The translations under genes and the position numbers were made by a program. Shown here in pieces: positions 2,769 through 21,667 of a DNA stretch of 64,000 nt. Under the pieces are notes generated by a model. The model saw only the letters and a list, made by a program, of their open reading frames with translations. It made no database searches and had not been told where the DNA came from. This DNA comes from Alloyangia pacifica (GTDB taxonomy: Bacteria; Pseudomonadota; Alphaproteobacteria; Rhodobacterales; Rhodobacteraceae), in contig NZ_JAIVKX010000022.1 in assembly GCF_020524285.1 (NCBI RefSeq), positions 1 to 64,000 of the forward strand, read 5' to 3'. Position 1 is the first letter of the stretch, and every line of letters starts with the position of its first letter.

Positions 2769-2778
2769 ATGGTATGCC
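2769..2778. promoter_or_regulatory. TGGTATGCCA operator-like site before NIPSNAP-ridA
   Basis: An inverted-repeat-like decamer 32 bp upstream of the NIPSNAP start codon. It is one of seven TGGTATRCCA-type sites in the catabolic island. The GT-N2-AC core fits FCD-type GntR operators. Confidence 0.6.
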
Positions 2779-2851
2779 ACCGGAAGACCAATAAAGAGCC
2801 ACGCATGCAAGCGGTGCCGGGCAAGAACCGTGCGGCGAGCGCGGCAAACAT

Positions 2852-2883
2852 AAAAAATGCCCGGTGTTTCAGCACCGGGCATT
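2852..2883 (-). terminator. Rho-independent terminator of the first GntR gene
   Basis: AATGCCCGGTG (2856-2866) pairs perfectly with CACCGGGCATT (2873-2883) around a six-base loop. On the minus strand the stem runs straight into six T residues (top-strand A tract at 2852-2857). It lies 41 bp after the GntR stop codon. Confidence 0.9.
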
Positions 2884-2923
2884 CGTCTCGTTCGGCAGAT
2901 CGGGCGGCCGGGACCGCCTGATT

Positions 2924-3607
2924 TCAGCGGGTCACGCCGGTCAGCCGGTTGATGATCGCGATCTTCACCGTGGCGATGTGATCGGCCATGGCCTTCTGCG
3001 CCGCCTCGGGCGGCCCCTCGACCACCGCGTCGAAGAGCTGGCTGTTCTCTTTGTGGTCGAAGCGCGAGTCGTGCGGGCTGCGATAGGCGTTGAGCACATG
3101 CGTCCGGCGGCGCAAATCGCGGATCATCTGCGCCAGAAGCTCGTTGCCCGCGGCATCCGCGATGGTGCCATGCATCAGGTCGTCGACCCGCCAGATGTCC
3201 GCCAGGGTCGGCTCGCCCTGCTCGGCCAGCGCCGCCATCTCGGCGCGGACCTCGGCAACGCGCTCCTTCGGCAAACGCCCGGCCGCGAGTCGCGCGGCCT
3301 CGGCCTCCAGCACCTGACGGACATTGAGAATTTCCATCAAGGCCTCGGTGCTGAACGGGCTGACGGTGACGCCGCGGTTGGCCTGCTTGTAGACCAGGCG
3401 CTCCGCCTCGAGCCGGCCGAGCGCCTCGCGGACCGGGGTGCGCGAGGCATTGAGCCGCGCCGCCAGCCGCCGCTCGACGATGACATCGCCCGGACGCAGC
3501 TCGCCGCTGATGAGGATCTCGACGAGCTGATCGTAGATCTGGTCGGTGAGGTTCGCTTTGGCCTCCGCCTCTTCCGAGTCCGGTCGCTGTGTGATGGCAG
3601 TGGTCAT
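2924..3607 (-). CDS. GntR-family (FCD subfamily) transcriptional regulator 1
   Basis: A 227-residue regulator. Residues about 18-85 form the winged helix (IYDQLVEILISGELRPGD, then SRTPVREALGRLEAE as the recognition region). The rest is an FCD effector domain, with VDDLMHGTIADAAGN and MADHIATVK giving the Asp/His positions that commonly bind a metal and a carboxylate ligand. The start at 3607 has AAGGAGA a few bases upstream. It is transcribed away from the nitrilase-Rieske operon, and a perfect TGGTATACCA site lies in the shared upstream region. FCD proteins are usually repressors relieved by a pathway intermediate. It is a close paralogue of the second GntR gene (both have DLRRRTH in the FCD domain). 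Confidence 0.92.
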   Translation of the reverse strand: MTTAITQRPDSEEAEAKANLTDQIYDQLVEILISGELRPGDVIVERRLAARLNASRTPVREALGRLEAERLVYKQANRGVTVSPFSTEALMEILNVRQVLEAEAARLAAGRLPKERVAEVRAEMAALAEQGEPTLADIWRVDDLMHGTIADAAGNELLAQMIRDLRRRTHVLNAYRSPHDSRFDHKENSQLFDAVVEGPPEAAQKAMADHIATVKIAIINRLTGVTR

Positions 3608-3790
3608 GCAGGGTCTCCTTGGCCTGATATCTTTGGCCTGCCCCCTCTCTACCCCGCAAGCCGCCGTCACGGAAGCCCATTGCGCGCCGAAGGTAGACCA
3701 CCTGTGTTCCCATTGCCGACAACTCTGCCACTTTTCCGCGCGCTCTTCCGGGCCCGGCAAAAAAATTTTCGCCACCACGAGACAGGAAGG

Positions 3791-3830
3791 TTGCAACGAC
3801 GCGTGATTGCTGAATGCTAGTGGTATACCA
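3791..3830 (+). promoter_or_regulatory. Probable promoter with TGGTATACCA operator (nitrilase-Rieske operon)
   Basis: TTGCAA (3791-3796) and TGCTAG (3815-3820), 18 bp apart, form a plausible -35/-10 pair. The perfect palindrome TGGTATACCA (3821-3830) follows directly, where a repressor would cover the transcription start. The nitrilase ATG is 45 bp further on. Confidence 0.6.
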
Positions 3831-3875
3831 ATGGCGTACAACTGCGACGCCAGCAGCCCGGAAGAAAGGACCACC

Positions 3876-4943
3876 ATGACCCGCTGGAGAGCGACCTGCA
3901 TCCAGATGCCGAGCGAAAGGGCCTGCCAGGCACCCGACCTCGCCTCGGCCCGCGCGGTGATCGAGCGCAACCGCGACCGGCTCGTCCGCCTGATCGAAGA
4001 GGCCTGCGCCTCGGAGCAGAAACCCGACCTCGTGGTCTCCCCCGAGTTCGCCATAATGGGCCCGCCGCTCGGCATGCCGGTGCGCGAGTGGATCGCCCGC
4101 GGCTGCATCACCCTGCCCGGCGCCGAGACCGCGCCGCTGCAGGCGCTGGCCCGGCGCGAGGGCATCTACATCTGCGGCAACGCCTTCGAGGCGCCGCCCG
4201 AGTTCCCGGGCCGCTACTTCAACACCTCCTACATCATCGGCCCCGACGGCGAGTTCATCCTGCGCTACCGCCGGGTGAACACCGCGGCCTTCCCCTCGGT
4301 GCACGACTTCCGCAGCGATTATCTGAAGGTCACGCCCGAGGATCAGGTCTTCCCGGTCGTCGACACGCCGCTCGGCCGGCTCTGCGTCATCGCCTGCGGC
4401 GAGATCAACGTGCCCGAGGTGGCGCGGGTGATGATGATGCAGGGCGCCGAGATCATCCTGCACCCGACCAACTCCCGCGCCTCCGCCGCGCAGGAAGCCG
4501 CCAAGCTCTGCCGGGTGTCCGAGAACATGGTGGCGCTGGTCTCGGCCAATGTCGCCGGACCCATCGGCTTCTCGCCGGACGGCACCTTCACCGGCGGGCG
4601 CTCGCATATCCTCGATCACCAGGGCAATACCCTCGCCTGGCGCGAGAGCGACGACGAGAGCACCGCGGTCAGCGCCCTGATCGACCTCGAGCAGCTGCGC
4701 AGCGACCGCCGCGCCGACACCGGCCTGTCGAACCCGCACCTGCGCGCCCGTTACGAGATGTACGTTCCCTTCTACCAGAAGGCCCGCTTCTACCCCGCCG
4801 ATTTCTTCCTCGATGCGCCGATGGCCGAGGTCTCCGAGACCGCCGCGGCCATCGCCCGCGCCCGCGAGAACCTCGAGCGCGCGGGCGTGCTCACCCCCCT
4901 TGCCGCCGGAGCCAAGGAACCGGCCTCAACCGTCGAACACTAG
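3876..4943 (+). CDS. Nitrilase-superfamily carbon-nitrogen hydrolase 1
   Basis: A 355-residue cytoplasmic hydrolase of amide, nitrile or carbamoyl bonds. The catalytic Glu57 (VVSPEF) and nucleophile Cys174 (IACGEINVPE) are visible. At the place of the usual catalytic lysine (YRK in amidases and carbamoylases) the protein has YRR, so Arg133 seems to replace it. The start at 3876 follows AAGAAAGGA at 3862-3870; an upstream in-frame codon at 3807 would place the operator inside the gene. The stop codon lies against the ribosome binding site of the Rieske oxygenase gene, so the two are coupled. A paralogue lies at 12900-13925. Substrate unknown; an amide, nitrile or ureido group of the pathway compound is the likely target. 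Confidence 0.87.
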   Translation: MTRWRATCIQMPSERACQAPDLASARAVIERNRDRLVRLIEEACASEQKPDLVVSPEFAIMGPPLGMPVREWIARGCITLPGAETAPLQALARREGIYICGNAFEAPPEFPGRYFNTSYIIGPDGEFILRYRRVNTAAFPSVHDFRSDYLKVTPEDQVFPVVDTPLGRLCVIACGEINVPEVARVMMMQGAEIILHPTNSRASAAQEAAKLCRVSENMVALVSANVAGPIGFSPDGTFTGGRSHILDHQGNTLAWRESDDESTAVSALIDLEQLRSDRRADTGLSNPHLRARYEMYVPFYQKARFYPADFFLDAPMAEVSETAAAIARARENLERAGVLTPLAAGAKEPASTVEH

Positions 4944-4952
4944 GAGACGACA

Positions 4953-6287
4953 ATGATCACCGCAGAAGAAAACATCGACCTGTGCGCCGTGGGCCGCGGA
5001 ACCCTGATGGGGGAGTTCTTCCGTCAGTTCTGGATCCCGGTCTGCCTGTCGTCGGAACTTGTGTCCGACGGCGACCCGGTGCGCCTGATGATCCTCGGAG
5101 AGAAGCTGATCGGCTTCCGCGACACCGAGGGCCGGGTCGGCGTCATGGACCACCGCTGCCCGCACCGCTGCGCCTCGCTGTTCTTCGGGCGCAACGAGCA
5201 CGGCGGCATCCGCTGCGCCTACCACGGCTGGAAGTTCGACGTGAACGGCAAGTGCCTCGACCAGCCCAACCTCGAGGACAAGTCGAAGTACCCCGCCGGC
5301 ACCCCGGCCTATGCCTACAAGACCCATGAGAGCGGCGGCCTCGTCTTCGCCTACTTCGGCGAGCGCCAGGACGCCCCCCCGCCCCTGCCCGAGATCGAGG
5401 CGATCATGGGCGAAGGCGACGACCGCAACATCGCGCTCACCCACCGCGACTGCAACTACATGCAGGCGCTCGAGGGCGACATCGACACCTCGCACCTGGG
5501 CTTCCTGCACATGGGCGGCATCGACGGCGACAACCTCGACATGTCCGACCCCGAGACCTACACGGTCACCGAGAAGGCGCCGAAGATCAACGTTTCGGTC
5601 ATGCCCTTCGGCACCATGTACTCGGCGCAGCGCGACGCGATGGACGGCCACGAGCACCAGCGCTACGCCTCCTACCTCTTCCCGTTCTGGGTGACCTACC
5701 CGGGCGGCGGCGAGCTCGGCAACGCCAAGACCGCGAACGCCTGGGTGCCGATCGACGACGACAGTTGCATGATCTTCAACATCGACCTCTCCCGCGCGTC
5801 GGGCGGCGGCCACAAGAAGCTGAAGTACAAGGACGGCAGCCCGGTCGTCGGCCTGGCACGCCCGCTGGAGTACCTGCCCACCACCACCGACTGGAAGGGC
5901 CGCTGGCGCCCGGTGAAGGATGCCAGCAACGACTACGGCATCGACCGTGAATGGCAGCGCTCGGGCGACAGCTACACCGGCATCGTCGGCGTGCCGCTGC
6001 AGGACCAGGCGATCCAGGAGAGCATGGGCCACGTGGTCGACCGCACCATGGAACACCTCGCCGCCTCGGACCGCATGGTCATCCTCACCCGCCGGGTGAT
6101 GCTCGACGCCGCGCTCGCCTGGCGCGACAACAAGGAGCTGCCGGACTTCGTCGATCACCCCGAGTACGCCCGCCAGGCCCATGGCGGCGACATCGTGGTG
6201 CCCAAGGGCACCGACTGGCTCGAAGGCTACGAGGAGCACATGGCCAAGATGAAAGGCTACGTCCCGCCCAAGGACGCGGCGGAATGA
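4953..6287 (+). CDS. Rieske aromatic ring-hydroxylating oxygenase, alpha subunit (phthalate-dioxygenase type)
   Basis: A 444-residue oxygenase. The Rieske [2Fe-2S] ligands are Cys69-x-His71 (HRCPH) and Cys88-x2-His91 (CAYHGW). The catalytic domain has NYMQALEGDIDTSHLGFLH from about residue 168, with His181 and His186 as mononuclear iron ligands and Asp178 in the bridging position. Sequence and size match the phthalate 4,5-dioxygenase/vanillate demethylase group, which has no beta subunit and hydroxylates or demethylates aromatic and heterocyclic rings. AGGAG overlaps the stop codon of the nitrilase gene, and its own stop overlaps the reductase start. The ring substrate is unknown. Confidence 0.92.
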   Translation: MITAEENIDLCAVGRGTLMGEFFRQFWIPVCLSSELVSDGDPVRLMILGEKLIGFRDTEGRVGVMDHRCPHRCASLFFGRNEHGGIRCAYHGWKFDVNGKCLDQPNLEDKSKYPAGTPAYAYKTHESGGLVFAYFGERQDAPPPLPEIEAIMGEGDDRNIALTHRDCNYMQALEGDIDTSHLGFLHMGGIDGDNLDMSDPETYTVTEKAPKINVSVMPFGTMYSAQRDAMDGHEHQRYASYLFPFWVTYPGGGELGNAKTANAWVPIDDDSCMIFNIDLSRASGGGHKKLKYKDGSPVVGLARPLEYLPTTTDWKGRWRPVKDASNDYGIDREWQRSGDSYTGIVGVPLQDQAIQESMGHVVDRTMEHLAASDRMVILTRRVMLDAALAWRDNKELPDFVDHPEYARQAHGGDIVVPKGTDWLEGYEEHMAKMKGYVPPKDAAE

Positions 6288-7282
6288 CGGCGCATTTCAG
6301 CGCAAAGGACGAGGCCGCGCCACAGGGCGTGGCCTCCACCGCCCCGCTCTCGCTGCGGGTCGAGGCGATCCGGTTCGAGGCCAGCAGCATCCGCTCGATC
6401 GAGCTCCGCGATCCCTCGGGCCGCCCCTTGCCGCCGGTGGAACCGGGCATGCACCTTGACCTCGCGCTGCCCGGCGACCTGATGCGCAGCTACTCGCTGA
6501 CCAACGGCCCCGAGATGACCGACGCCTGGGTGATCGGCGTCAACCGCGACCCGGCCAGCACCGGCGGCTCGGCCTATCTCTGCGAGGAGCTGCGGGTCGG
6601 CGATCTGCTCGAGGTCTCCCTGCCCCGCAACACCTTTCCGCTCACCCCGGCTCCGGCAATCTTCTTCGCGGGCGGCATCGGCGTCACCCCGATCCTGTCG
6701 ATGGTCCGCCACCTCGCCGCGCAGGGCATCGACTGGCAGCTTGTCTACGCCGCGCGCGGCCGCGCCGAGGCCGCCTTCCTGCCCGCGCTCGCCGCGCTCG
6801 ACCCCGAGGGCCGCCGCATCCACCTGCATTTCGACGATGCCGAAGGCGCGGTGCTCGACCTCGCGGCCCGTGTCGCCGAGGCCCCCGCGGCGGCGCATCT
6901 CTACTGCTGCGGCCCCGCCCCCATGCTCGACGCCTTCGAGGCCGCCACCGCCGGGCGCCCGCCCGAGCAGGTCCACCTGGAGCGCTTCCACGGCGGCGAG
7001 GTCGCAGGCGCCGAGACCGGCTTCACCGTTGTGCTGAAACGCTCGGGCCGCGAATTCACCGTGCCGCCCGGCGCGACGATCATCGAGACCCTGCAGGAGG
7101 CCGGCGTCCGCGTCTCCTATTCCTGCCGCTCCGGCGTCTGCGGCACCTGCGAGACGCGGGTGATCGAGGGCACCCCCGACCACCGCGACAACCTGTTGTC
7201 GGAGCGCGAGCGCGACAGCGGCAAGGTGATGATGATCTGCTGTTCGCTGGCCAAGAGCGACCGGCTGGTGCTCGACCTCTGA
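6284..7282 (+). CDS. Phthalate-dioxygenase-reductase-type electron transfer protein
   Basis: A 332-residue single-chain reductase: N-terminal flavin domain (MRSYSLTN), NAD(P)H domain (FFAGGIGVTPILSM, then YCCGPAPML) and a C-terminal plant-type [2Fe-2S] ferredoxin domain with Cys281, Cys286, Cys289 and Cys319 (SCRSGVCGTC). This flavin-NAD-ferredoxin order is that of PDR/VanB reductases. It passes electrons from NAD(P)H to the Rieske oxygenase encoded immediately upstream. The start at 6284 overlaps the oxygenase stop (ATGA). A strong terminator follows the gene, so the operon is nitrilase-oxygenase-reductase. Confidence 0.93.
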   Translation: MTAHFSAKDEAAPQGVASTAPLSLRVEAIRFEASSIRSIELRDPSGRPLPPVEPGMHLDLALPGDLMRSYSLTNGPEMTDAWVIGVNRDPASTGGSAYLCEELRVGDLLEVSLPRNTFPLTPAPAIFFAGGIGVTPILSMVRHLAAQGIDWQLVYAARGRAEAAFLPALAALDPEGRRIHLHFDDAEGAVLDLAARVAEAPAAAHLYCCGPAPMLDAFEAATAGRPPEQVHLERFHGGEVAGAETGFTVVLKRSGREFTVPPGATIIETLQEAGVRVSYSCRSGVCGTCETRVIEGTPDHRDNLLSERERDSGKVMMICCSLAKSDRLVLDL

Positions 7283-7882: not shown

Positions 7883-8974
7883 ATGAATCCCACTCTCTCC
7901 CATCATGATATTTACGACGCGGCGTTGGACCAATCGCTCTTCGAGGCACTTCCGGGCAAATTGGCGCGCGAGATGGATGTGCCCTCGGCGATGTTCTTCT
8001 GGCTGCACCCAGGCGACATCCAGGAAATCACCGCCGGGACCCAGCCAGAGGCGCATTCGGACTACGACGACTTTCTCGACGACGATCCCTGGATGGCCCA
8101 GGTCACCGAGGACAAGATCGGCAAGGGCGCCTTCCGCCTGACCCGCTACGTGAGCCCCGACGACTTCCAGAAAAGCGCGATGTACAACGACTACATCGTC
8201 AAGAACCGGCTCGACCGTTTCTGGTGCGCCGGGATGCTGCAGAAAACCCGCGACGGCGTGGTCGCCACCGCCTTTCACAAGGGCAGGACCGCAGGTGATT
8301 TCAGCGATACGGAAATGCGCTACGTCAATCGCCACGCCTCCGATCTGGGGCGCCTGCACGCGATCCGGCGCGAATTGCTCCGCACCGGCATCCGCGAGAT
8401 CGCCGCCCCGGACCGCAGCCTGCGCGACGAGGTGCCGACCTTCGAGCTCGACCACGAAGGCAGGCTGATCCGCATCAACGGGCTGGCAGAGACCCTGCTG
8501 TCGCTGCACCCGCGGCTGATCGTGAAATACGACCGGACCCTCGCCATTGCCGGGCCGGGCGCGCAGCAGCTTCAACGGCAGGTCGCCGCGGCCACCGACC
8601 GGCAGGCCAGCGCGGCCGGCGCCGTCGATCTGCCGGGGCTGCGGGCGGTGGACGGGCGTCTGCTGCCGGCGCTGAAGCTGAACCTCCTGCCGCGCCACGA
8701 AGGCGGACGGCGGGTGCTGGTGATCGTCACCACCGAAGAGCCGTCGGGACTGCGGGACTGCATCGCCTCGCCCGAAGACAGCGTGACGCTGACCCCGCGC
8801 GAGCGCGACGTGCTGGACGGGCTGGCGCAGGGCTACCGGCGCGACCAGCTCGCCCACGCTCTGGGGCTGGCGCTGCCCACGGTGGATTTGCACGGCGCCT
8901 CGCTGCGGCGCAAGCTCGGCGCCCGCACCATCCCCGAGGCCATCGCGATCGCCTTCCGGCTCGGGCTGCTCTGA
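7883..8974 (+). CDS. LuxR-type HTH transcriptional regulator
   Basis: A 363-residue protein. The last 60 residues are a GerE/LuxR-type helix-turn-helix (LTPRERDVLDGLAQGYRR, then LALPTVDLHGASLRRKLGA). The N-terminal 300 residues are not a recognised autoinducer-binding or receiver domain; the middle part may be PAS-like (FELDHEGRLIRINGLAETLL). There is no neighbouring luxI. It lies between the Rieske operon and the first ABC importer and lacks the TGGTATRCCA sites of the surrounding units, so it may respond to a different signal. No strong Shine-Dalgarno sequence precedes the ATG. Target genes unknown. Confidence 0.8.
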   Translation: MNPTLSHHDIYDAALDQSLFEALPGKLAREMDVPSAMFFWLHPGDIQEITAGTQPEAHSDYDDFLDDDPWMAQVTEDKIGKGAFRLTRYVSPDDFQKSAMYNDYIVKNRLDRFWCAGMLQKTRDGVVATAFHKGRTAGDFSDTEMRYVNRHASDLGRLHAIRRELLRTGIREIAAPDRSLRDEVPTFELDHEGRLIRINGLAETLLSLHPRLIVKYDRTLAIAGPGAQQLQRQVAAATDRQASAAGAVDLPGLRAVDGRLLPALKLNLLPRHEGGRRVLVIVTTEEPSGLRDCIASPEDSVTLTPRERDVLDGLAQGYRRDQLAHALGLALPTVDLHGASLRRKLGARTIPEAIAIAFRLGLL

Positions 8975-9064: not shown

Positions 9065-9883
9065 TCAGCCCTTGCCCGAAAGCTCCACGCTCTCGCGCCA
9101 GGGGATCGCCACCCGCTCGAGCCAGGTCAGCAGCCCGAAGAAGCTCATGCCCATCAGCGAGATCAGGATGATCGAGGCGAACTGCCGCGCGATGTCGAAG
9201 TTGGCCCCGGCGATGAGGATCAGGTAGCCCAGCCCCTTGTCGGCGCCGATGAACTCGGCGACGATCGCCCCGATCACCGACAGCGCCGTGGCCAGCTTGA
9301 GCCCGCCGAAGATGAAGGGCAGTGCCTTGGGCAGGCGGAACTTCCAGAAGATCTGCCAGCCGTTCGCCCCCATCGAGCGTGCGAGGTACAGCATCTCGGG
9401 CGTGGTCGCGCGCAGCCCCATCACCGTGTTGATCACGATCGGGAAGAAGCTCAGCATGATGACAATGACGATCTTCGGAGTCACCCCGTAGCCGAACCAG
9501 GTCAGCAGCAGCGGCGCGATGGCGACCTTGGGGATGGTCTGGCTCATCACGATGATCGGGAAGACCGCCCGCGCCATGAACTGCGAGTAGACCACCGAGA
9601 CCGCCAGCGGCACGGCGATGCAGACCGCGCAGGCGAACCCGAAGAGGATCTCGCCCAGCGTCACCAGCGCGTTCGGCCAGAGCCGGTGCCAGTAGCTGAC
9701 GATCTCGGCGAAGATCACCGAGGGCGCGGGCAGGATGTACTGCGGGATTTCGCGCAAGCGCACCATCACCTCCCAGAAGAGCAGCAGCGCGATCAGCGTC
9801 CAGACCGCCGGCGGAATGCGCTCGCCGAGGGTCTTCAGCGGGTTGCGGCGGGCGATGTAGGTGGTGTCGGGAACCGAGGCCAT
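9065..9883 (-). CDS. ABC transporter permease, importer 1 (SsuC/TauC-like)
   Basis: A 272-residue inner-membrane permease with about six hydrophobic segments (VWTLIALLLFWEVMV, LFGFACAVCIAVPLAV and others). The EAA-type cytoplasmic loop is visible around EMLYLARSMGANGWQIFWKF, which docks the ATPase. This permease type works with NMT1/THI5- or sulfonate-type binding proteins. It is the last gene of the operon SBP-SDR-ATPase-permease and starts four bases after the ATPase stop. The transported compound is unknown; the shared operator motif suggests it is the growth substrate of the island. Confidence 0.9.
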   Translation of the reverse strand: MASVPDTTYIARRNPLKTLGERIPPAVWTLIALLLFWEVMVRLREIPQYILPAPSVIFAEIVSYWHRLWPNALVTLGEILFGFACAVCIAVPLAVSVVYSQFMARAVFPIIVMSQTIPKVAIAPLLLTWFGYGVTPKIVIVIMLSFFPIVINTVMGLRATTPEMLYLARSMGANGWQIFWKFRLPKALPFIFGGLKLATALSVIGAIVAEFIGADKGLGYLILIAGANFDIARQFASIILISLMGMSFFGLLTWLERVAIPWRESVELSGKG

Positions 9884-9887
9884 GGGA

Positions 9888-13997: not shown

Positions 13998-14065
13998 TTG
14001 CACAGGACGCCCTGCGACATATGTTTCTAGCCGCTTCACAGCCTGTGCCCAATAAGGTATCACAT

Positions 14066-14075: not shown

Positions 14076-14133
14076 TTGGGATGCAATGCCGCCGCCTGCG
14101 CCCTCATCTCGCATCGAACACGGGGACTCACGC

Positions 14134-14814
14134 ATGGACGGAATGGACGACAGCAGCCTCCCGGCGATTCCGCCGCAACTGGCACCGGGAGAGCAGAGCC
14201 TCTCCGACCAGGCCTACACCCGCATCCTCGAGATGCTCCTGGCCGGGCAACTGGTGCCCGGCGAAGCGCTGCAGGAGCGGCGGCTGGCGCAGATGATGGA
14301 CATCTCGCGCACCCCGGTGCGCGAGGCGCTGTTCCGGCTCGAGGCCGAGGCGCTGATCCTGCGCGGGCCGGGCCGCAAGCTGGTGGTCAACGACATCAGC
14401 ATCGAGAGCTACGTACGGCTGCTCGACCTGCGCCGCATCCTAGAGATGGAAGCCGCCGCCCGCGCCACCGGCCGGATCAGCCCCGAGAAACTGGCCGAGG
14501 TCGACGAGATGCTGCATCTCGAAACGGTGAGCGCGGCGCAGCACTGGGCGGTGGACGACCTGGTGCACCACACCATCGCCGAGGCCGCGGGCAACCCCAT
14601 GCTGACCCGCACCATCCTCGACCTGCGCCGCCGCACCCACATCTTCAACACCAACCGCATCTCGCACCGCCGCCGCCCCGGCACCGAGGAGCACCTCGCG
14701 CTCATCCGCGCCGCCGCCGGCAGCGATCCCGAGCTGACCCGGCGCCTGATGGGCACGCACCTCGACCACGTGCGCAACGCCATCGTCGATTTCATCCTCG
14801 GGATCCGGCACTGA
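14134..14814 (+). CDS. GntR-family (FCD subfamily) transcriptional regulator 2
   Basis: A 226-residue regulator. The winged helix covers AYTRILEMLLAGQLVPGEAL and SRTPVREALFRLEAE. The FCD domain has VDDLVHHTIAEAAGN, GTEEHLALI and THLDHVRNAI, supplying the conserved Asp and His residues. The start at 14134 (MDGMDD) is the first Met that does not run through the palindrome; an in-frame ATG at 14065 overlaps the operator and is less likely. It is divergent from nitrilase 2 and followed after four bases by an MFS transporter. It shares DLRRRTH and RTPVREAL with regulator 1, so the two may read related operators and different ligands. Confidence 0.9.
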   Translation: MDGMDDSSLPAIPPQLAPGEQSLSDQAYTRILEMLLAGQLVPGEALQERRLAQMMDISRTPVREALFRLEAEALILRGPGRKLVVNDISIESYVRLLDLRRILEMEAAARATGRISPEKLAEVDEMLHLETVSAAQHWAVDDLVHHTIAEAAGNPMLTRTILDLRRRTHIFNTNRISHRRRPGTEEHLALIRAAAGSDPELTRRLMGTHLDHVRNAIVDFILGIRH

Positions 14815-14818: not shown

Positions 14819-16249
14819 ATGACAGACACCACTTCCCAACCAATCGAGCCGACCTCCGCGCCGGGTCGCCTCGGCTTCCTCGCCCCCGGCACGCCGCGGC
14901 TGCTGTCGGCGGCGCTGCTGGCGCTCTTCGTCGCGGCGCTCGAGCAGACCATCGTCGGCCCGGTGCTGCCGGATATCCTGGATCGCCTCGGCGGCGGCGC
15001 GCTGCTCGGCTGGATCGCCACCGGCTACCTCGTCGCCGCCACCGTGGCCGCGCCGCTCTACGGTGCCATCGCCGACCTGCGCGGACGGCGGCAGGCGCTG
15101 CTCATCGCCAACGGGCTCTTCCTTGCCGGATCGGTGCTCTGCGCACTCGCCCCCAGCCTGCCGCTGCTGGTGCTGGCGCGGCTGGTGCAGGGCTTCGGGG
15201 CCGGCGGCATGGTCGCCCTGCCCTTCATCATCATCGCCGACCGCGTGCCGATGTCGAAACGCGCCGGATACAGCGCCTATATCTCGACCATCTACGCCGT
15301 CGCCGGGCTGATCGGCCCGCTGCTCGGCGGGCTGGTGGCCGAGCGGCTGAGTTACACGGTGGTGTTCTGGCTCAACCTGCCCGCCTGCGCCGCCGTCGCC
15401 TGGGGGGTGATGACCGCCCTCGCCCCGCGCGCCGCCACCCGCGGCCGCCGCATCGACTGGCCGGGCGCGGCCTTCCTGCTGCTGGCCACCGTGCCGACGC
15501 TGGTGCTGATCGACGGCATCGCCGGGGCGCAGCTGCTGCCCGGCTGGGGCCCCGTGCTGAGCGTTCTGGGCCTGATCGGCTGGATCGCCTTCGGCCTGCG
15601 CATGGCGCGGGCGGGCGATCCGCTGATCCCGCTCACCGTGTTCCGCAACCGCACCATCCTGCTCGCGGCGCTGTCGCTCTCGACCTGCCAGGCGGTGAAC
15701 ATCGGCCTCGCGGTCTACCTGCCGCTCTACTACCACGCCGCCTTCGGCTTTTCCCCGGCGCTTGCCGGCGCGGCACTGCTGGCGCTGGTCGGCGGCATCA
15801 TGATCGGCGCCTACGTGCCGCCCTTGCTGCTGCGCCGCAACCCCGCCTACAAGCCGCTGCTGATCCGCGCGGCGCTGGCGGGAACGGCGCTGGCCGGGGG
15901 GTTCACCGCGCTGGTGGCGCTGGCGCCAGCGCCGGGGCCGGTGATCGCCAGCACCTTCGGGCTCGGACTGTCGATCGGTATGCTCTACCCGGTGTTCACC
16001 CTGGCGGTGCAGAACGCCGCAGAGCCCGGCCAGATGGGCGCGGCGATCGGCGTTCTGGCCTTCATGCGCTCGATCGGCGGCACGCTCGGGGTCTCGCTGA
16101 TGGGTCTCGCGGCGCTGAACGCGGGGCTGGCCGGAGAGCCCGCGACCCTGCCGCTCTGGTCGCTGCCCGCCGCCGCCTGCGCGCTGATGGCGGTGGGGCT
16201 GGCGGCGAACCTGATGATGCCCGCCCGCAGGCTGAAGGGGTTCCGCTGA
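14819..16249 (+). CDS. MFS transporter (DHA2/multidrug-type)
   Basis: A 476-residue, very hydrophobic protein with the 14-helix layout of the DHA2 group. The motif GAIADLRGRRQALL is the conserved loop between helices 2 and 3, and GPLLGGLVAERL is the antiporter-type motif C in helix 5. Such proteins export drugs or metabolites with proton motive force. It begins four bases after the GntR gene, so it is translated from the same message. In this context it may export a toxic intermediate or take up a pathway compound; direction is not shown by the sequence. Confidence 0.88.
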   Translation: MTDTTSQPIEPTSAPGRLGFLAPGTPRLLSAALLALFVAALEQTIVGPVLPDILDRLGGGALLGWIATGYLVAATVAAPLYGAIADLRGRRQALLIANGLFLAGSVLCALAPSLPLLVLARLVQGFGAGGMVALPFIIIADRVPMSKRAGYSAYISTIYAVAGLIGPLLGGLVAERLSYTVVFWLNLPACAAVAWGVMTALAPRAATRGRRIDWPGAAFLLLATVPTLVLIDGIAGAQLLPGWGPVLSVLGLIGWIAFGLRMARAGDPLIPLTVFRNRTILLAALSLSTCQAVNIGLAVYLPLYYHAAFGFSPALAGAALLALVGGIMIGAYVPPLLLRRNPAYKPLLIRAALAGTALAGGFTALVALAPAPGPVIASTFGLGLSIGMLYPVFTLAVQNAAEPGQMGAAIGVLAFMRSIGGTLGVSLMGLAALNAGLAGEPATLPLWSLPAAACALMAVGLAANLMMPARRLKGFR

Positions 16250-16307: not shown

Positions 16308-17243
16308 TCAGGCGGGCGCGACCAGCGCCGCCAGCTTCGCCTCCTGCCGGGCCAGCATGCACTCGACCTCGGCCACGGCGGCGGGCGGCAGCGCCGCGCC
16401 GGGGCGCCGCTGCGCCGCAGAAGCGATGGCACCGCGCTTGGTCAGGACGTATTTGCGCACCGCCAGACCGACGCCGGGCTGCTGCTCGTAGCGCACCAGC
16501 GGCATGTAGGCCTCGAAGACATCCGCCGCGCGGTCCCAGTCTCCGGCCTGCGACAGGCGCACGATGTCGCGCATCATCTCGGGGAAGCCGAAGCCGGTCA
16601 TCGCGCCATCGGCGCCGCGCCGCATCTCCTCGGGCAGGAACAGCCCGCCGTTGCCGCAGAGGATCGACACCCGCCGCCGTCCCGCCGCCTCGGCGGCGCG
16701 CAGGGCGGTGATCTTCGCCAGCCCCGGCCAGTCCTCGTGCTTGACCATGACGATGCTGTCATGCGCCTCGAGAATGCGCCCCAGCGAGCCCGTGGAGATC
16801 GGCACCTTGGTCGACAGCGGGAAGTCCTGCAGCACCAGCGGCACATCCGGCCCCAGCACCTCGACGACCTGCGCGAAATAGCTCTCGACCTGCTCGTTGG
16901 TCGCCAGCCCCATCGGCGGCGCCACCATGACGCCCGCCGCGCCGAGATCCATCACCGCCTTCGACAGCTCGCCGATCGCCGCCAGCCCCGGCGCCGAGAC
17001 GCCCACCACCACCGGCTTGCCCCCGGCGCGGCGGATGGTGGCGGCGGCCACCTCGCGGCTCTCGGCCATGGTCAGCTTCGGCGCCTCGCCCATCATGCCG
17101 AGGATGGTCAGACCGTCGGCCCCCTTCTCGAAGTAGAAATCGGTCACCCGGTCGAGGCTCGCGCGGTCGAGCGCGCCGTCCTCGGCGAAGGGGGTCACGG
17201 CGATGACGAAGACACCCGCCGTGCGGGTCGTGATGAGGCTCAT
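16308..17243 (-). CDS. Dihydrodipicolinate synthase (DHDPS/NAL) family lyase or hydratase
   Basis: A 311-residue (beta/alpha)8 protein of the class I aldolase superfamily. The Schiff-base lysine is Lys168 (IVMVKHEDWPG). The N-terminal loop reads GMMGEAPKLT instead of GTTGE, and the conserved Tyr-Asn of true DapA is replaced by Gln-Asp-Phe-Pro (139-142), so this is not DapA. Members with this pattern cleave or dehydrate 2-keto acids. The start at 17243 has AGGAGA upstream. It follows the second binding-protein gene in the same direction but behind a terminator. With the aldehyde dehydrogenase at the window start it might produce and oxidise 2,5-dioxopentanoate; this is only inference. Confidence 0.82.
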   Translation of the reverse strand: MSLITTRTAGVFVIAVTPFAEDGALDRASLDRVTDFYFEKGADGLTILGMMGEAPKLTMAESREVAAATIRRAGGKPVVVGVSAPGLAAIGELSKAVMDLGAAGVMVAPPMGLATNEQVESYFAQVVEVLGPDVPLVLQDFPLSTKVPISTGSLGRILEAHDSIVMVKHEDWPGLAKITALRAAEAAGRRRVSILCGNGGLFLPEEMRRGADGAMTGFGFPEMMRDIVRLSQAGDWDRAADVFEAYMPLVRYEQQPGVGLAVRKYVLTKRGAIASAAQRRPGAALPPAAVAEVECMLARQEAKLAALVAPA

Positions 17244-17284
17244 GTCGGCACTCTCCTGAAAGGCTGGCCGGAGGACCGGCCTGA

Positions 17285-17316
17285 AAAACGCACCGCCCGG
17301 CGCGAAGACCGGGCGG
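17285..17316 (-). terminator. Terminator after the importer 2 binding protein
   Basis: CCGCCCGG (17293-17300) pairs with CCGGGCGG (17309-17316). On the minus strand the stem is followed by TGCGTTTTT. It lies between the binding-protein stop (17344) and the DHDPS-family start (17243), so the latter may need read-through or its own promoter. Confidence 0.75.
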
Positions 17317-17343
17317 CGCACTCCGGCAAGACGGAGCCGCGGC

Positions 17344-18333
17344 TTACTCGGCGACCTGGTAGACCACGTCCTCGGCGCTCAGCGTCTTCGACAGCGGCGT
17401 GACCTTGTCGACCACCTCGATGTTATGCGCGACGCGGGCCATGTCGAAGTCGTAGCCGTTCGCCTCGAAGACACCGTTGTCGAAGGCGAAGGAGAGCGAG
17501 TTCGGCACCATCCGCGCCTGGCTCTCGCGCAGCGTGCCGTCCACATGCGCGACGATGGCGTCGATCGCCGCCTCCGGGTCGTCCTGCGCGGCGTCGTAGG
17601 TGCACTCCACCGCCGCCTTGAAGCGCTTCACCAGGTCGGGGTTCTCGGCGATCATCTTGTCCGAGGTGAAGATCGAGGCGTTGTAGATATCGAGCGCGTC
17701 GCCGTAGTAGACCGCCCGCACCTTCTTGCCCGCGTTCTCGGCCAGCGCCTGGATGCCCACGACCGAGGTCACGTAGCTGGCCAGCGCGTCGATCCGCCCC
17801 TGCAGCAGCAGCCCGTTCAGCGCCGAGCCGTCCGCCGTCTCGACGTTCACCGCGTCCATGCTCGCGCCTTCCATCTGCAGCCCGAGCGGCAGGAAGGAAT
17901 ACGCCGCATTGCCCACCGAGGTGCCGATGGTGCGGCCCTGCAGGTCGGCCAGCGTCTGGATCGGGCTGTCGTCGAGCACCGCGATCGACGCCGGGTTCTG
18001 CGACACGATCGGCATGATCGCCTTCACCGGCGCGTCGCTCTCGGCGATGGTGCCGATGATCGTGCCGAGGTCGGTGACCGAGAAATCCGCCACGCCGGTC
18101 GCCACCTTAGTCACCGCATCCGCCGCGCCGTAGCCGCGCGAGATCGTCACGTCGATGTCCTGCTCGGTGAAGCAGCCCTGGTCGAGCCCGAGGTAATAGG
18201 CGGCCGAGATGCCGCCGGGCGTCCAGTCGAGCTGGAAATCGACCTGATCCGCGGCGCGCGCCGCCCCGGCAGCGGCGGTCATCCCCGCAACTGCCCCCGC
18301 AACAAGCACCGCGCTCGGAAACGTTGTCGGCAT
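17344..18333 (-). CDS. ABC transporter substrate-binding protein, importer 2 (NMT1/THI5-like)
   Basis: A 329-residue periplasmic protein with a signal peptide ending GAARAADQ. VDFQLDWTPGGISAAYYLGL is the characteristic THI5/NMT1 beginning, where the DW and nearby aromatic residues line the ligand pocket, and DFSVTDLGTII is the second conserved strand. CAGGAG precedes the ATG. TGGCATACCA lies 35 bp upstream in the region shared with the divergent M20 amidohydrolase. The ATPase and permease it probably serves are at 19765-21413, on the far side of that gene. The ligand is unknown; it is clearly different in sequence from the importer 1 binding protein. Confidence 0.9.
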   Translation of the reverse strand: MPTTFPSAVLVAGAVAGMTAAAGAARAADQVDFQLDWTPGGISAAYYLGLDQGCFTEQDIDVTISRGYGAADAVTKVATGVADFSVTDLGTIIGTIAESDAPVKAIMPIVSQNPASIAVLDDSPIQTLADLQGRTIGTSVGNAAYSFLPLGLQMEGASMDAVNVETADGSALNGLLLQGRIDALASYVTSVVGIQALAENAGKKVRAVYYGDALDIYNASIFTSDKMIAENPDLVKRFKAAVECTYDAAQDDPEAAIDAIVAHVDGTLRESQARMVPNSLSFAFDNGVFEANGYDFDMARVAHNIEVVDKVTPLSKTLSAEDVVYQVAE

Positions 18334-18368
18334 GATGGATTCTCCTGTTGGTCTGTTTGGTTTGTCGT

Positions 18369-18378
18369 TGGCATACCA
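18369..18378. promoter_or_regulatory. TGGCATACCA operator-like site, divergent (SBP 2 / M20)
   Basis: It is placed between two divergent genes, 35 bp before the binding protein start and 86 bp before the M20 start, so one site could control both. A half-site AGGATACC follows at 18381-18388. Confidence 0.6.
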
Positions 18379-18464
18379 TTAGGATACCGATACGCTCCGA
18401 CAAAGCGAATAACGCAAGACCGGGCCGATCCAGCCCCCAAGATCCCAACGTGAGAGGAAAAATC

Positions 18465-19670
18465 ATGCAGATGGAAAAGGTCCTCGCCGCCTTCGAGGCG
18501 CGGCAGCAGGAAATGGTGGCCCTGCGCCACGACATCCACATGCATCCCGAAACCTCCTATGAGGAAGTCCGCACCTCGGCGCTGGTCCGCCGCAAGCTCG
18601 ACGAGTGGGGCATCGAGAACCACGCCGGGCTCGCCGGCACCGGCGTCGTCGCGGTGATCCGCGGCCGCCTGCCCGGCAACCGCGCCGTCGGGCTGCGCGC
18701 CGACATGGACGCGCTCAACATGGACGAGACCAACAGCTTCGGTCACCGCTCGACCATCCCCGGCAAGTTCCACGGCTGCGGCCATGACGGCCACACCACC
18801 ATGCTGCTGAACGCCGCGCGCTACCTCTCCGAGAACCCCGATTTCGGCGGCACCGTGCATTGCATCTTCCAGCCCGCCGAAGAGGGCGGCGCCGGCGGGC
18901 TGCGGATGATCGAGGAAGGGCTCTTCGAGCAGTTCCCCTGCGACGCGGTCTACTCGCTGCACAACAAGCCCGGCGTGCCGGTCGGCAAGTTCATCACCCG
19001 CGTCGGCGGCCAGCTCGCCTGCGCCGACCAGTGGGAGGTCACCTTCCACGGCACCGGCGGCCACGCCGGCGCGCCCGAGAAATCCGTCGACCTGATGACC
19101 GCGCTGGCGCATTTCATCCTCGGCATCCAGGGCATCGTGGCGCGCAACGTGGTGGCGCAGGAATCCGCCGTGCTGACCATCGGCGTGATCCAGGCCGGCA
19201 GCTCGCACAACGTCATGCCCTCGAAGATCGTGGTCACCGGCACCGCCCGCTGCCACAACCCAGAGGTGCGTGACCTTCTGGAAAAACGCCTCAAGGAAGT
19301 CGCCGACAGTTCCGCCGCCATGTGCCTCGCCCGCGCCGAGCTGGACTACCAGCGCGGCTACCCGCCGCTGGTCAACGCCCAGGCCGAGACCGACAAGGCC
19401 GTGGCCGCCGCCGCCGCGGTCAGCGGCATGGAAAACGTCGACCCCAACTCGCCGCCGATCAACGCCGCCGATGATTTCGCCTACATGGCCATCGCCCGGC
19501 CCGGCTGCAACGTGATGATGGGCAATGGCGACGGGCCGGAGTGGAAGAACAACCACCGCCCCGACTACGACTTCAACGATGCGGCGATCCCCTACGGCTC
19601 GGCCTATTGGGTCTCGGTGGTGAACCAGGAGCTCGGCCAGGGCGCCGACACGCAGCAGTCAGCCGCCTGA
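18465..19670 (+). CDS. M20D-family amidohydrolase (hippurate hydrolase-like)
   Basis: A 401-residue metallo-amidohydrolase. HGCGHDGHTTMLL gives metal ligands Cys105 and His107, and FQPAEEGGAGG gives Glu139/Glu140, the catalytic base and ligand region. LRHDIHMHPETSYEE at the N-terminus is the family opening. Relatives hydrolyse N-acyl amino acids such as hippurate, N-acetyl-amino acids or IAA conjugates in the cytoplasm. The start at 18465 follows GAGAGGAAAAAT. It is divergent from the importer 2 binding protein and shares its operator region, so it probably acts on the imported compound. It is distinct from the ArgE/DapE-like enzyme at 255-1544. Confidence 0.9.
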   Translation: MQMEKVLAAFEARQQEMVALRHDIHMHPETSYEEVRTSALVRRKLDEWGIENHAGLAGTGVVAVIRGRLPGNRAVGLRADMDALNMDETNSFGHRSTIPGKFHGCGHDGHTTMLLNAARYLSENPDFGGTVHCIFQPAEEGGAGGLRMIEEGLFEQFPCDAVYSLHNKPGVPVGKFITRVGGQLACADQWEVTFHGTGGHAGAPEKSVDLMTALAHFILGIQGIVARNVVAQESAVLTIGVIQAGSSHNVMPSKIVVTGTARCHNPEVRDLLEKRLKEVADSSAAMCLARAELDYQRGYPPLVNAQAETDKAVAAAAAVSGMENVDPNSPPINAADDFAYMAIARPGCNVMMGNGDGPEWKNNHRPDYDFNDAAIPYGSAYWVSVVNQELGQGADTQQSAA

Positions 19671-19703: not shown

Positions 19704-19729
19704 AAAGGCCGGCGTCCCCGCCGGCCTTT
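19704..19729. terminator. Bidirectional terminator between M20 gene and importer 2 permease
   Basis: AAAGGCCGGCG (19704-19714) pairs perfectly with CGCCGGCCTTT (19719-19729) around TCCC. It sits between convergent stops at 19670 and 19765 and has A/T ends on both sides. Confidence 0.85.
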
Positions 19730-19764
19730 CCCATATCCGCAGAGGCGCTGCGCCGAGGCGCCGC

Positions 19765-20532
19765 TCACTCCCCCGCCTTGGTCTTGATCGACCAGCCGAA
19801 GAACGCCCGATGCGCCCAGTTCACCGCCTCGTAGAGCACCACCGAGATCACCGCGAGGATCACCACGCAGGCGGTCGCCGTGGGAATGGCGAACTGCGCC
19901 GTCGAGGAGGTCACCAGGAAGCCCAGCCCCTTGTTGGCGTTGACGAACTCGGCCACCACCGCGCCGACCACGGCGACGGTCACCCCGATCCGCAGCCCGC
20001 TGAAGATGAAGGGGATGGCGCTCGGCAGGCGCACGCTGAGGATCTCGCCCATGCGCGAGGCCCCGGCGACCCGCGCCAGGTCCAGCATCTCCTTCGGCGT
20101 GTCCATCATCCCGGCAGCGGTGTTCACCATGATCGGGAAGAAGCAGGTCAGCGTCACGATGATCAGCCGCGTCGTCATGTCGGTGCCGAAGATCACCACG
20201 AGGATCGGCGCGATGGCGATGATCGGAATCGCGTTCAGGAAGACGATCAGAGGGTAGATCATCTCCGAAATCGTGCGGTTGACCGAGACCACCACCCCCA
20301 GCGGAATCCCCACCACGCAGGCGCAGACGAAGCCGAGCAGGATGGTCTTCAGCGTCTCGAGCGTGTTGCTCAGGATCGCCGGGCCGAGCTTGCCGCCGCC
20401 CTCGTAGATGTCGAGCGGCGAGGGCAGCAGGTAGACCGGCACGTCCAGCGCCTCGCTCAGCAGCTGCCAGCCCAGCAGGAAGCTCAGGAAGGTGCCGACG
20501 GGCAGGACGATCTTTCTCAGGGCGGGGCTCAT
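19765..20532 (-). CDS. ABC transporter permease, importer 2 (SsuC/TauC-like)
   Basis: A 255-residue permease with about six membrane segments (FLSFLLGWQLLSEAL, LLGFVCACVVGIPLGVVV and others) and an EAA loop around EMLDLARVAGASRMGEILSV. It pairs with the ATPase encoded just upstream; its start codon overlaps the ATPase stop by four bases. It is paralogous to the importer 1 permease, so the island has two complete systems of the same type. The matching binding protein is most likely the one at 17344-18333. Confidence 0.9.
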   Translation of the reverse strand: MSPALRKIVLPVGTFLSFLLGWQLLSEALDVPVYLLPSPLDIYEGGGKLGPAILSNTLETLKTILLGFVCACVVGIPLGVVVSVNRTISEMIYPLIVFLNAIPIIAIAPILVVIFGTDMTTRLIIVTLTCFFPIMVNTAAGMMDTPKEMLDLARVAGASRMGEILSVRLPSAIPFIFSGLRIGVTVAVVGAVVAEFVNANKGLGFLVTSSTAQFAIPTATACVVILAVISVVLYEAVNWAHRAFFGWSIKTKAGE

Positions 20533-21413
20533 GCGCGGCGTCCTTTGCGGCTCAAACGGGGTCCGAAGATGTCGTCGCGGATACGCTGCGACAGGGCGAG
20601 GAAATCGGGCCGTGCGCCGCTCTCGGCGCCGCGCGGCTTCGGCACGTCGATCTCGACCAGGTCCTGCATCCGCCCCGGCCGCGCCGACATCACCGCCACC
20701 CGGTCCGACAGCAGCACCGCCTCGTTGATCGAATGGGTGACCAGCAGGATGGTCTTGCGGGTCTCGGCGTGGATATCCAGCAGATCGAGCTGCAGGTCCT
20801 CGCGGGTCAGCGCATCCAGCGCGCCGAAAGGCTCGTCCATCAGCAGGATCTTCGGATCGAGGATCAGGCTCCGGGCGATCGAGGCGCGCTGCTGCATGCC
20901 GCCCGACAGCTCGTGCGGCATGCGGTCTGCCATGTCCTGCAGCCCGACCAGCTCGAGCAGCTCCATGGCGCGGCTCCGATGCGCCTTGGTCGGGCGCTGC
21001 AGCACCTTCACCGGGTAGAGCACGTTATCCATCACGCTCAGCCAGGGCAGCAAGGTCGGGCGCTGAAAGACGAGGGCCACCTCGGAAAAGCCGCGCTGCG
21101 TCTTGCCGCCACCGATCCATATGTCGCCGCTGGTCGGCTGCTGCAGCCCGGCCAGCATCCGCAGCACCGTCGACTTGCCGCAGCCCGACGGGCCGACCAG
21201 CGAGACGATCTCCTCGCGGTAGATGGTCAGGTTCATGTCCTCCACCGCCACCAGCGGATCGCCCTTGGCGGTGGCGAAGGTCACCCCGGCATGGGCCAGC
21301 TCGATGATCGGCTCGCGGCGTGCTGTCCCCGCCCCTTCGCGACCTTGCATTCCGAAATCCGGCCTGGTCTCCGGCTTGCTGTGCGCCTCCCGCGCTGGCG
21401 TTGCATGGATCAT
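20529..21413 (-). CDS. ABC transporter ATP-binding protein, importer 2
   Basis: A 294-residue ATPase with Walker A GPSGCGKST (74-82), signature LSGGMQQR, Walker B ILLMDEPFGA and the switch His in LVTHS. It has about 35 extra N-terminal residues compared with relatives. The start at 21413 (MIHATPAR) is supported by AAGGAGA upstream. A TGGCATACCA site lies 53 bp before it, so ATPase and permease form a separately regulated two-gene unit. It is paralogous to the importer 1 ATPase. Confidence 0.92.
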   Translation of the reverse strand: MIHATPAREAHSKPETRPDFGMQGREGAGTARREPIIELAHAGVTFATAKGDPLVAVEDMNLTIYREEIVSLVGPSGCGKSTVLRMLAGLQQPTSGDIWIGGGKTQRGFSEVALVFQRPTLLPWLSVMDNVLYPVKVLQRPTKAHRSRAMELLELVGLQDMADRMPHELSGGMQQRASIARSLILDPKILLMDEPFGALDALTREDLQLDLLDIHAETRKTILLVTHSINEAVLLSDRVAVMSARPGRMQDLVEIDVPKPRGAESGARPDFLALSQRIRDDIFGPRLSRKGRRA

Positions 21414-21466
21414 GCTCTCGTCTCCTTTGTCCCCCCGGGACCGGCCTGCAGCCCCGCGTGACACGA

Positions 21467-21476
21467 TGGCATACCA
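21467..21476. promoter_or_regulatory. TGGCATACCA operator-like site before importer 2 ATPase
   Basis: The decamer is identical to the copies at 13967 and 18369, 53 bp upstream of the ATPase start. The flanking 220 bp up to the divergent SDR gene hold no credible gene. Confidence 0.6.
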
Positions 21477-21646
21477 AAGGAACACCAAGCGCCAGAGGGA
21501 AGAGCGCCCTGCCCCGCCAAGGCAGCACCGGGCGCCGCCCGGCGCCGAAAACTTGTGCAACCACGGCTCGAATGCCCGCCGGATGATCCATTGATCTCGT
21601 TGCTTCTTCCCCTCCCGACCCCGGATATTGCCCGGCGGCGCGAATC

Positions 21647-21667
21647 TGGCATTCCAATTGTCGACCA
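21647..21667. promoter_or_regulatory. Paired operator-like sites before the SDR pair
   Basis: TGGCATTCCA (21647-21656) is a degenerate copy of the island motif, and TTGTCGACCA (21658-21667) is a near copy of the palindrome before GntR gene 2. They are adjacent, ending 22 bp before the SDR start, so both regulators might bind here. Confidence 0.4.

Follow-up and report, generated by a model that had tools for sequence, protein, structure and literature searches.

A three-box operator array precedes the scattered operons of a catabolic island in Alloyangia pacifica

Introduction

The first 22 kb of contig NZ_JAIVKX010000022.1 of Alloyangia pacifica (NCBI RefSeq assembly GCF_020524285.1) hold a set of operons, placed on both strands, that encode two ABC importers, two nitrilase-fold amidases, a Rieske oxygenase with its reductase, and two FCD-type GntR regulators. 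Hereafter, we call this set the island, and the whole stretch of DNA analysed (64,000 nucleotides, positions 1 to 64,000 of the contig) the window. An earlier note on this DNA had seen seven copies of the decamer TGGTATRCCA upstream of the island genes and had proposed that one operator joins the operons into one regulon. The locus thus raises the question of whether these operons are switched together, by which sign they are marked, and which protein reads it. Our results show that the regulon-specific sign is an array of 32 bp, in which three palindromic boxes follow each other at a spacing of 11 bp, with the decamer in the middle. Very probably, as judged from sequence comparison, the scattered operons are co-regulated by either or both GntR repressors. 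We put at roughly 77% the probability that the island is one catabolic regulon in which FCD-type GntR dimers would sit side by side on the three-box operators, repress the operons, and be released by a metabolite.

Decamer Copies in the Window and in the Genome

A search of the window for TGGTATRCCA on both strands, with up to two mismatches allowed, recovered all seven copies, with the first one starting at position 2770 and not at 2769 as described before. The copies at 2770, 3821, 13967, 18369, and 21467 are exact on at least one strand, that at 12715 has one mismatch, and the weak one at 21647 has one mismatch on the minus strand and two on the plus strand. The distances to the start codons, reported as 32–53 bp and as 86 bp for the M20 gene, agree with the gaps that we measured and give with each array below; for the 21647 decamer, the coordinates place the start of sdr2 at about 32 bp. 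In line with the earlier note, which had noticed no copy in the remaining 40 kb, no exact or one-mismatch decamer was found past position 21656 in the window. With one mismatch, an extra copy was seen at 17357; it falls within the final part of the sbp2 coding sequence, where the array matrix described later on gives less than 3 bits. With two mismatches, the window total was 49 matches versus 30.5 ± 6.3 in shuffled sequences, a number reached by 1 of 100 shuffles; the loose-match count is barely above chance, and the signal is carried by the exact sites and their context.

Equal frequency of the motif in the rest of the genome had been named as the finding that would speak against a regulon, and this is not what a genome-wide count returned. 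The genome (5,725,348 bases) contains 16 TGGYATRCCA sites versus two for the same pattern read backward, and five of the 16 are located within the first 22 kb of the window (binomial P 3.5e-9). A longer pattern, GGYATRCCANNGGNNNRCC, gave 19 matches in the genome with one mismatch allowed, versus six for its control; eight of them, at six distinct places, and all three exact ones belong to the island. Nevertheless, the decamer alone was rejected as the sign of the regulon, as 11 of the 16 copies lie elsewhere, on contigs C2, C7, C8 (five), C11, C30, and C32 (two). Moreover, of 14 genomes of relatives, only six have more copies of the bare decamer than of its backward control, and in the other eight it is no commoner; a plain genome-wide count would therefore not reveal the regulon there. 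The decamer was also found, without extra boxes, beside two other FCD genes (on C8 and C30) of the 41 that this genome holds.

Contig C8 (stretches L035 and L036) carries perfect TGGTATACCA sites at 1462, 1519, 15114, 19671, and 31128, mostly in a TTTGGTATACCAAA-like or AATGGTATACCAAA-like context. Their neighbours encode an FCD GntR regulator, a TRAP binding protein, an ILVD/EDD dehydratase, a DHDPS protein, and a dehydrogenase, and this stretch probably forms another FCD regulon, distinct from that of the island and concerned with a sugar acid. A literature search for TGGTATACCA returned no GntR-related title among the matches listed.

A Three-Box Array around the Decamer

When the decamer profile was slid along the DNA around the seven window sites, offsets +11 (z 8.5) and −11 (z 5.0) were the best two of 140 non-zero offsets. 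The analysis was extended to 104 sites upstream of island genes, one of which ran off its locus; removal of 14 near copies among the other 103 left a non-redundant set of 89, drawn from 28 loci, of which the window is one. In this set, the z values rose to 14.9 at +11 and 12.7 at −11, and the logo showed the boxes nGGTATTCC, TGGYATRCCA, and nGGnATGCCA, one per 11 bp. The sites had been picked without using the outer boxes, although the central box did serve for picking. The decisive control is the contrast within the genome itself: the six island decamers compared there gave z values of 8.0 at +11 and 5.5 at −11, versus −0.9 and 0.0 for the 11 decamers outside the island. The earlier identification of the operator thus holds in that a common sign precedes the scattered operons, but this sign consists of the whole three-box array rather than of the decamer by itself. 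The island arrays have three boxes at a fixed spacing, as looked for in a multi-dimer operator.

These data also bear on a simpler explanation, in which a single dimer occupies the central palindrome as in an ordinary FCD site and the outer boxes are affinity-modulating half-site contacts or relics. The central box is indeed far stronger (1.1–2.2 bits per column, versus mostly 0.2–0.7 in the outer ones, though the sites were picked by the central box), and the other decamers of the genome presumably work as single palindromes. However, the outer boxes stand at exactly 11 bp in the 89 non-redundant sites, across genera, they resemble a whole palindrome rather than a half-site extension, and they are missing at the other decamers of the genome. 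We thus consider a single dimer distinctly unlikely and prefer the reading of dimers placed side by side on the three boxes.

Array Sites in the Window

A matrix of 34 columns was built from 76 sites of other genera, excluding the window and its two island-bearing congeners, genomes G011 and G009. This held-out matrix ranks the six strong window sites first (34.3 to 23.2 bits), while the maxima of 20 shuffles ranged from 1.4 to 13.6 bits, and nothing above 3 bits was detected from 22.4 to 64 kb of the window. In the following, each array is given with its score and with the number of its 32 columns that are identical in the three genomes.

The first strong array (2759–2790, core 2770–2779; 32.1 bits, 25/32) precedes nipsnap-ridA on the minus strand with a gap of 33 bp between decamer and start codon, and the second (3810–3841, core 3821–3830; 34.3 bits, 25/32) lies 45 bp before the nit1-Rieske-reductase operon on the plus strand. 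The array at 12704–12735 (core 12715–12724; 28.6 bits, 26/32) is found 48 bp before sbp1-sdr1-atp1-perm1 (minus strand), and that at 13956–13987 (core 13967–13976; 31.4 bits, 29/32) is 41 bp before nit2 (minus strand) and 157 bp from gntR2. A single array (18358–18389, core 18369–18378; 34.3 bits, 32/32) is common to the divergent sbp2-dhdps (minus strand, gap 35 bp) and m20b (plus strand, gap 86 bp), and the last of the six, the third box of which is poor (21456–21487, core 21467–21476; 23.2 bits, 25/32), lies 53 bp before atp2-perm2 (minus strand).

In addition to these, an array that the first reading had not listed was detected at 14055–14086, with core TGGTCGACCA at 14066–14075, 58 bp before gntR2-mfs on the plus strand. 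It scores 20.4 bits, above all 20 shuffle maxima, keeps 31/32 columns, and the same array is present in both congeners. The weak decamer at 21647 turned out to belong, as the first box, to a further array, which has its centre at 21658 (21647–21678; 27/32) and lies 22 bp before the pair of short-chain dehydrogenase/reductase (SDR) genes on the plus strand. Its 14.5 bits are just above the best shuffle (13.6), and it is better formed in G011 and G009, where the boxes TGGCATTCCAA TTGTCGACCAT TGGAACTCCAA reach 16.7 bits. Finally, a tentative candidate at 3680–3711 (core 3691–3700; 23/32), 83 bp before gntR1, scores 10.8 bits, which is within the range of the shuffle maxima and so, by score, not above chance.

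Conservation of the Arrays in Related Genomes

The island was found in two of the 19 genomes of the same genus that were searched, G011 and G009, with all six strong sites. In these, GntR1 is 86–88% identical and the island DNA 80–92% identical by aligned piece. Across six intergenic regions, the eight arrays together have 256 columns, 220 of which are identical in the three congeners, versus 552 of 1015 columns outside the arrays, the candidate at 3691 having been left out of both classes.

A contig scan with both nitrilases yielded 31 loci from Rhodobacterales, Devosia, Rhizobium and its relatives, and Peristeroidobacter soli (Steroidobacteraceae). Locus L089, evidently a copy of the G009 contig given its equal length and equal arrays, was dropped before the counts, and the final set, including the window, G011, and G009, comprised 33 loci and 685,666 bases. 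Over this set, the matrix gave 164 matches, none of them inside an island gene, 150 at up to 300 bp upstream of one, and 14 elsewhere; the mirrored matrix gave two. Arrays were present in 30 of the 33 loci (27 of the 30 beyond the window and its two congeners), and none was detected with the array matrix in L106, L110, or L117. In Peristeroidobacter soli (L107), arrays were found at 1321, 2373, and 14820, together with nitrilase-Rieske-reductase genes, in a family that does not belong to the Alphaproteobacteria. Arrays away from recognised island genes were seen in L096 (at 3969) and L119 (at 5512 and 6663), and these are perhaps further members of the regulon.

The counts per gene, made for arrays at up to 300 bp upstream in gene rows with enough flank, divergent genes sharing an array, separate the genes that lead operons from most of those inside them. 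An upstream array was found in all rows of m20b (14/14), sbp2 (13/13), and nipsnap (13/13), as well as in those of gntR2 (24/24) and gntR1 (25/25), which include the array of the neighbour, and in most rows of sbp1 (26/28), nit2 (23/26), and nit1 (23/28). The association is weaker for sdr2 (16/26) and atp2 (13/21). Lower counts were obtained for dhdps (8/27), atp1 (2/32), sdr1 (1/25), and rieske (1/32), and no upstream array was detected for orf2 (0/11), perm2 (0/16), mfs (0/13), perm1 (0/26), red (0/30), ridA (0/9), or luxR (0/2). An initial score of 11 of 23 readable loci as lacking a nit2 site was discarded, as their DNA shows arrays with a TGGTATTCC core, which the first pattern had excluded.

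The array thus stands before most operons of the island, is kept before their orthologs, and is rare elsewhere, so that the proposal of one operator for one regulon is well supported by comparative evidence, with the same arrays before the same genes in relatives. One could still argue that the decamers are leftovers of a recent duplication, neutral conservation, or chance, given that the island is conserved as one unit and that the congeners share so much of its DNA. Against this, the decamer enrichment in the first 22 kb (P 3.5e-9), the higher conservation of the arrays than of their flanks, the lack of any matrix match inside island genes, and the recurrence of the boxes between families amid otherwise dissimilar flanks all speak in the same direction, and the held-out matrix ranking and the offset statistics already contradict chance or ancestry. 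The probability that we leave to this explanation is practically negligible.

Candidate Readers of the Arrays

The two FCD-type GntR genes noticed earlier within the set, gntR1 (2924–3607, minus strand) and gntR2 (14134–14814, plus strand), were confirmed by Pfam, with the GntR winged helix-turn-helix and the FCD domain above curated cut-offs in both proteins, which are 43% identical over the matched stretch. The array box fits the TKGT/ACMA consensus of the FadR subfamily as given in PMC4494728. The structural model of GntR1 (predicted local distance difference test, pLDDT, 84.7) consists of a winged helix and a six-helix bundle, with residues 1–17 below a pLDDT of 50 and thus predicted to be disordered, and with the first helix at residue 20. 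A Foldseek search with this model returned FCD regulators, among which PmiR, McbR, and TM0439 rank before NanR. Between gntR1 and nipsnap, at about 2850–2890 of the window, lies a strong inverted repeat, AATGCCCGGTG...CACCGGGCATT, kept in both congeners, which is probably a terminator.

Which of the two proteins reads the arrays we infer from their sequences and distribution. In the tree, they form two clades, supported by 100/99 for GntR1 and, without the L107 protein, by 98/93 for GntR2. Four genomes without a detected GntR2 ortholog (best matches of 35–40%) keep GntR1 and four to six arrays each. This persistence points to GntR1, which is most likely the main reader of the arrays, and GntR2 probably reads them as well. 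Arg46, Ser-Arg-Thr-Pro at 55–58, and Arg60, which we take to be the base-contacting positions of FadR, are identical in the 21 GntR1 rows with data and in all 24 GntR2 rows. At position 188, presumably one of the metal-binding positions of the FCD domain, 24/24 GntR2 proteins have His, whereas the 22 GntR1 proteins have Asn (17) or Ser (5). His146 and His210 are kept in 22/22 GntR1 and 24/24 GntR2 proteins, and Asp142 is nearly invariant in 27 rows, in what we assume to be the site of one Asp and three His found in TM0439-type proteins. Equal recognition residues and a different position 188 suggest that GntR1 and GntR2 bind the same DNA and respond to different ligands, that is, that they share a reading head and differ in the ligand pocket.

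A division of labour into two regulons was also considered, in which GntR1 reads the arrays of nit1, nipsnap, and the sbp and atp genes, and GntR2 reads only those of nit2 and gntR2, with TGGTATTCC and TGGTCKACC cores. In Rhizobium and Devosia relatives, the nit2 cores are in fact TGGTATTCCA and the gntR2 cores TGGTAGACCA-like, both unlike the canonical decamer, and wing residues differ between GntR1 and GntR2 of the window in the alignment. However, the residues of the recognition helix are the same in the two clades, the canonical core is present at the nit2 site in 10/10 Rhodobacterales loci with nit2, and neither the 11-bp spacing nor the flanking boxes set the two kinds of promoter apart. 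Two separate regulons are therefore unlikely in our opinion, and we retain a single regulon with GntR1 as the likelier main reader.

As binding by the GntR proteins is a point that we infer, the arrays could also serve an activator or another protein family, with the GntR genes as bystanders, and a LuxR-type gene is indeed located inside the island. Nevertheless, that gene is present only in the window and G009 among the 33 loci, versus 30 with arrays, the box fits the FadR-subfamily consensus (PMC4494728), and the arrays overlap the expected promoter region. We regard this possibility as very improbable and keep the GntR proteins as the predicted readers.

Promoter Positions and Proposed Mechanism

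The arrays lie 22–58 bp before the first codon, or 86 bp in the case of m20b. A TTG, as in a −35 element, starts 29–33 bp before the core in 20/20 nit1 and 6/6 nipsnap sites, and 18–22 bp before it in 15/21 sbp1 and 6/8 nit2 sites. These positions would place the −10 region and the start inside the array at four promoters, and such an overlap would fit repressors that hinder the polymerase sterically until a metabolite of the pathway relieves the block. In the mechanism that we propose, the operator is made up of a strong central TGGYATRCCA and a weaker nGGnATnCC on each side, about one helix turn apart. FCD-type GntR dimers (most likely of GntR1, and probably of GntR2 too) would occupy the boxes, one dimer per box, on one face of the DNA, and the bound dimers would block binding or start of the RNA polymerase at the arrayed promoters. 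In this way, they would repress uptake through the two ABC importers as well as the Rieske-nitrilase pathway, and they would also repress gntR2 at least, which would amount to autoregulation, until a metabolite of the pathway, acting as the putative inducer, releases the dimers.

Several findings weigh against this reading. Offsets −5, +5, and +16 are also raised in the 89 sites (z 5.8, 4.7, and 3.8), which is expected from overlaps of half-sites, with a different register being possible. Most of the scanned loci also trained the matrix, only the window, G011, and G009 being blind. Ten control stretches of the same genome, slightly overlapping and 144,174 bases in all, were taken from the surroundings of the other decamers and from the contig of the window; in these, the array matrix reached a maximum of 22.7 bits, which equals the scores of the weaker arrays in the island. 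These control scores come from perfect cores in A/T-rich flanks and not from outer boxes; the matrix score alone does not separate single decamers from weaker arrays, but the boxes at ±11 do. Regarding the promoters, a TTG at either distance was found in 0/10 sbp2 sites and in 1/9 and 2/9 atp2 sites, and the mean match to TTGACA at positions other than the core is 4.0/6 at best. Regarding the reader, the GntR1 frame looks broken in the assembly in two of the four cases with GntR1 only (L109 and G201), leaving L111 and L119 as the clean ones, and some of these genomes are drafts or metagenome-assembled genomes, in which the absence of GntR2 is not certain. Locus L107 has three arrays and a single regulator in the genome searched, which falls beside GntR2 with poor support (93/36), and the three loci that lack both regulators, though free of arrays, lack most island genes too, which makes them a weak control. 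Either GntR protein, or both, could be the reader.

In G201 (C1:71935–72567), the GntR1 frame contains one TGA, and in L109 (16792–17434), it is split into two overlapping pieces, with arrays persisting in both cases; these interrupted frames are either assembly faults or decaying regulators.

A more elaborate version of the mechanism can be put forward tentatively, as a possibility that we hold to be less probable than its absence. In it, the two FCD paralogues, alike in the reading head but with pockets that differ (His188 versus Asn/Ser188), would compete or mix on the same three-palindrome operators, with three dimers lined up along the same side of the helix. They would act as a double-sensor hub and make the promoters of an as yet undescribed Rieske-amidase pathway answer to a single switch with two inputs.

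Genes of the Island and Neighbouring Sequences

The genes behind the arrays were assigned mostly by Pfam. On the minus strand, nipsnap (2122–2736, Pfam NIPSNAP) is followed by ridA (1640–2125), the match of which to a Rid subfamily of NCBIfam is below the cut-off. The plus-strand operon at 3876–7282 starts with nit1, encoding a nitrilase-fold amidase, and continues with the Rieske oxygenase (4953–6287), with 7fhr, a putative phthalate 4,5-dioxygenase subunit alpha, as its best solved match, and the reductase (6284–7282). Importer 1 (9065–12666, minus strand) comprises perm1, atp1, sdr1, and sbp1, of the NMT1/THI5-like type, and nit2 (12900–13925, minus strand) encodes a second nitrilase-fold amidase, 47% identical to the first. 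Directly after gntR2 comes an MFS transporter gene (14819–16249, plus strand), followed by a DHDPS-family lyase gene with the NMT1-like sbp2 (16308–18333, minus strand), the amidohydrolase gene m20b (18465–19670, plus strand; NCBIfam TIGR01891 above cut-off), and importer 2 with perm2 and atp2 (19765–21413, minus strand). Finally, sdr2 (21690–22364, plus strand; Pfam adh_short) is accompanied by a second, SDR-like frame (22418–23065, plus strand), assigned from synteny, from 77–79% protein identity in the two congeners, and from weak sdr2-like matches in relatives.

Nine of the ten island proteins tested miss the NCBIfam cut-offs, and the M20 protein alone passes. Nit2 is distant from all solved nitrilases (best E 8.8e-16), and the best solved matches of the Rieske protein are phthalate-dioxygenase-like. 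We read the island as a putative system that takes up and degrades an amide of aromatic or heterocyclic nature. The homarine pathway was considered as the identity of the island and dropped after a literature search gave it no support. The same literature held nothing relevant on the combination of NIPSNAP, Rieske, and nitrilase genes, a weak negative, as most subscription papers are outside its coverage.

Another M20 gene, at 255–1544, was considered as a member and rejected, with no array above 3 bits nearby and no match in the G011 and G009 stretches compared. The LuxR-type gene (7883–8974) lies in the island without an array, and it is 76% identical in G009, with no match in the G011 stretch. 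Directly beside the island, at 23276–27058 on the minus strand, a RepABC-type module (RP-C, RepB/ParB-like, and ParA-like) was found, because of which the 110-kb contig is probably a secondary replicon.

Comparison with Known Systems

If the proposed reading is right, the operator code (32 bp, three boxes, period of 11 bp) tells apart FCD regulons that share one decamer in one genome. This would be of practical use for regulon prediction, with 41 FCD genes here and a decamer no commoner than its control in 8/14 relatives. In addition, a catabolic island present in several families, the proteins of which mostly miss the NCBIfam cut-offs, points to an uncharacterised pathway, and its regulators offer a natural case of two paralogous predicted repressors that share the reading head but not the pocket.

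UxuR/ExuR-type operators have the core TGGTATACCA. They share the decamer of the island, as do the sites that this genome carries on C8 and C30; the latter differ from the island arrays in having no boxes at ±11 bp. The single palindromes of FadR-subfamily (FCD) regulators described in PMC4494728 are alike in their TKGT/ACMA-type box and unlike in their number, one versus three boxes per island operator.

The closest analogy is NanR of E. coli, an FCD-type GntR repressor. In PMC8012715, three NanR dimers are described on the three boxes of a (GGTATA)3 operator; the boxes are direct repeats, the dimers sit about half a turn apart, and their cooperation needs a 32-residue N-terminal extension. 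As in NanR, the island combines FCD-type GntR regulators with three neighbouring boxes, and cooperative occupation by three dimers would be the natural analogy. The island differs from NanR in that its boxes are palindromes spaced by a full turn (11 bp) instead of direct repeats at half a turn, and no 32-residue N-terminal extension was seen in GntR1, as judged from its length and model only. The two-sensor arrangement, if true, would likewise have a geometry of full-turn palindromes, different from the half-turn direct repeats of NanR. By analogy, then, the island operator would be a multi-dimer FCD operator in its mode of action, but not one of the NanR type.

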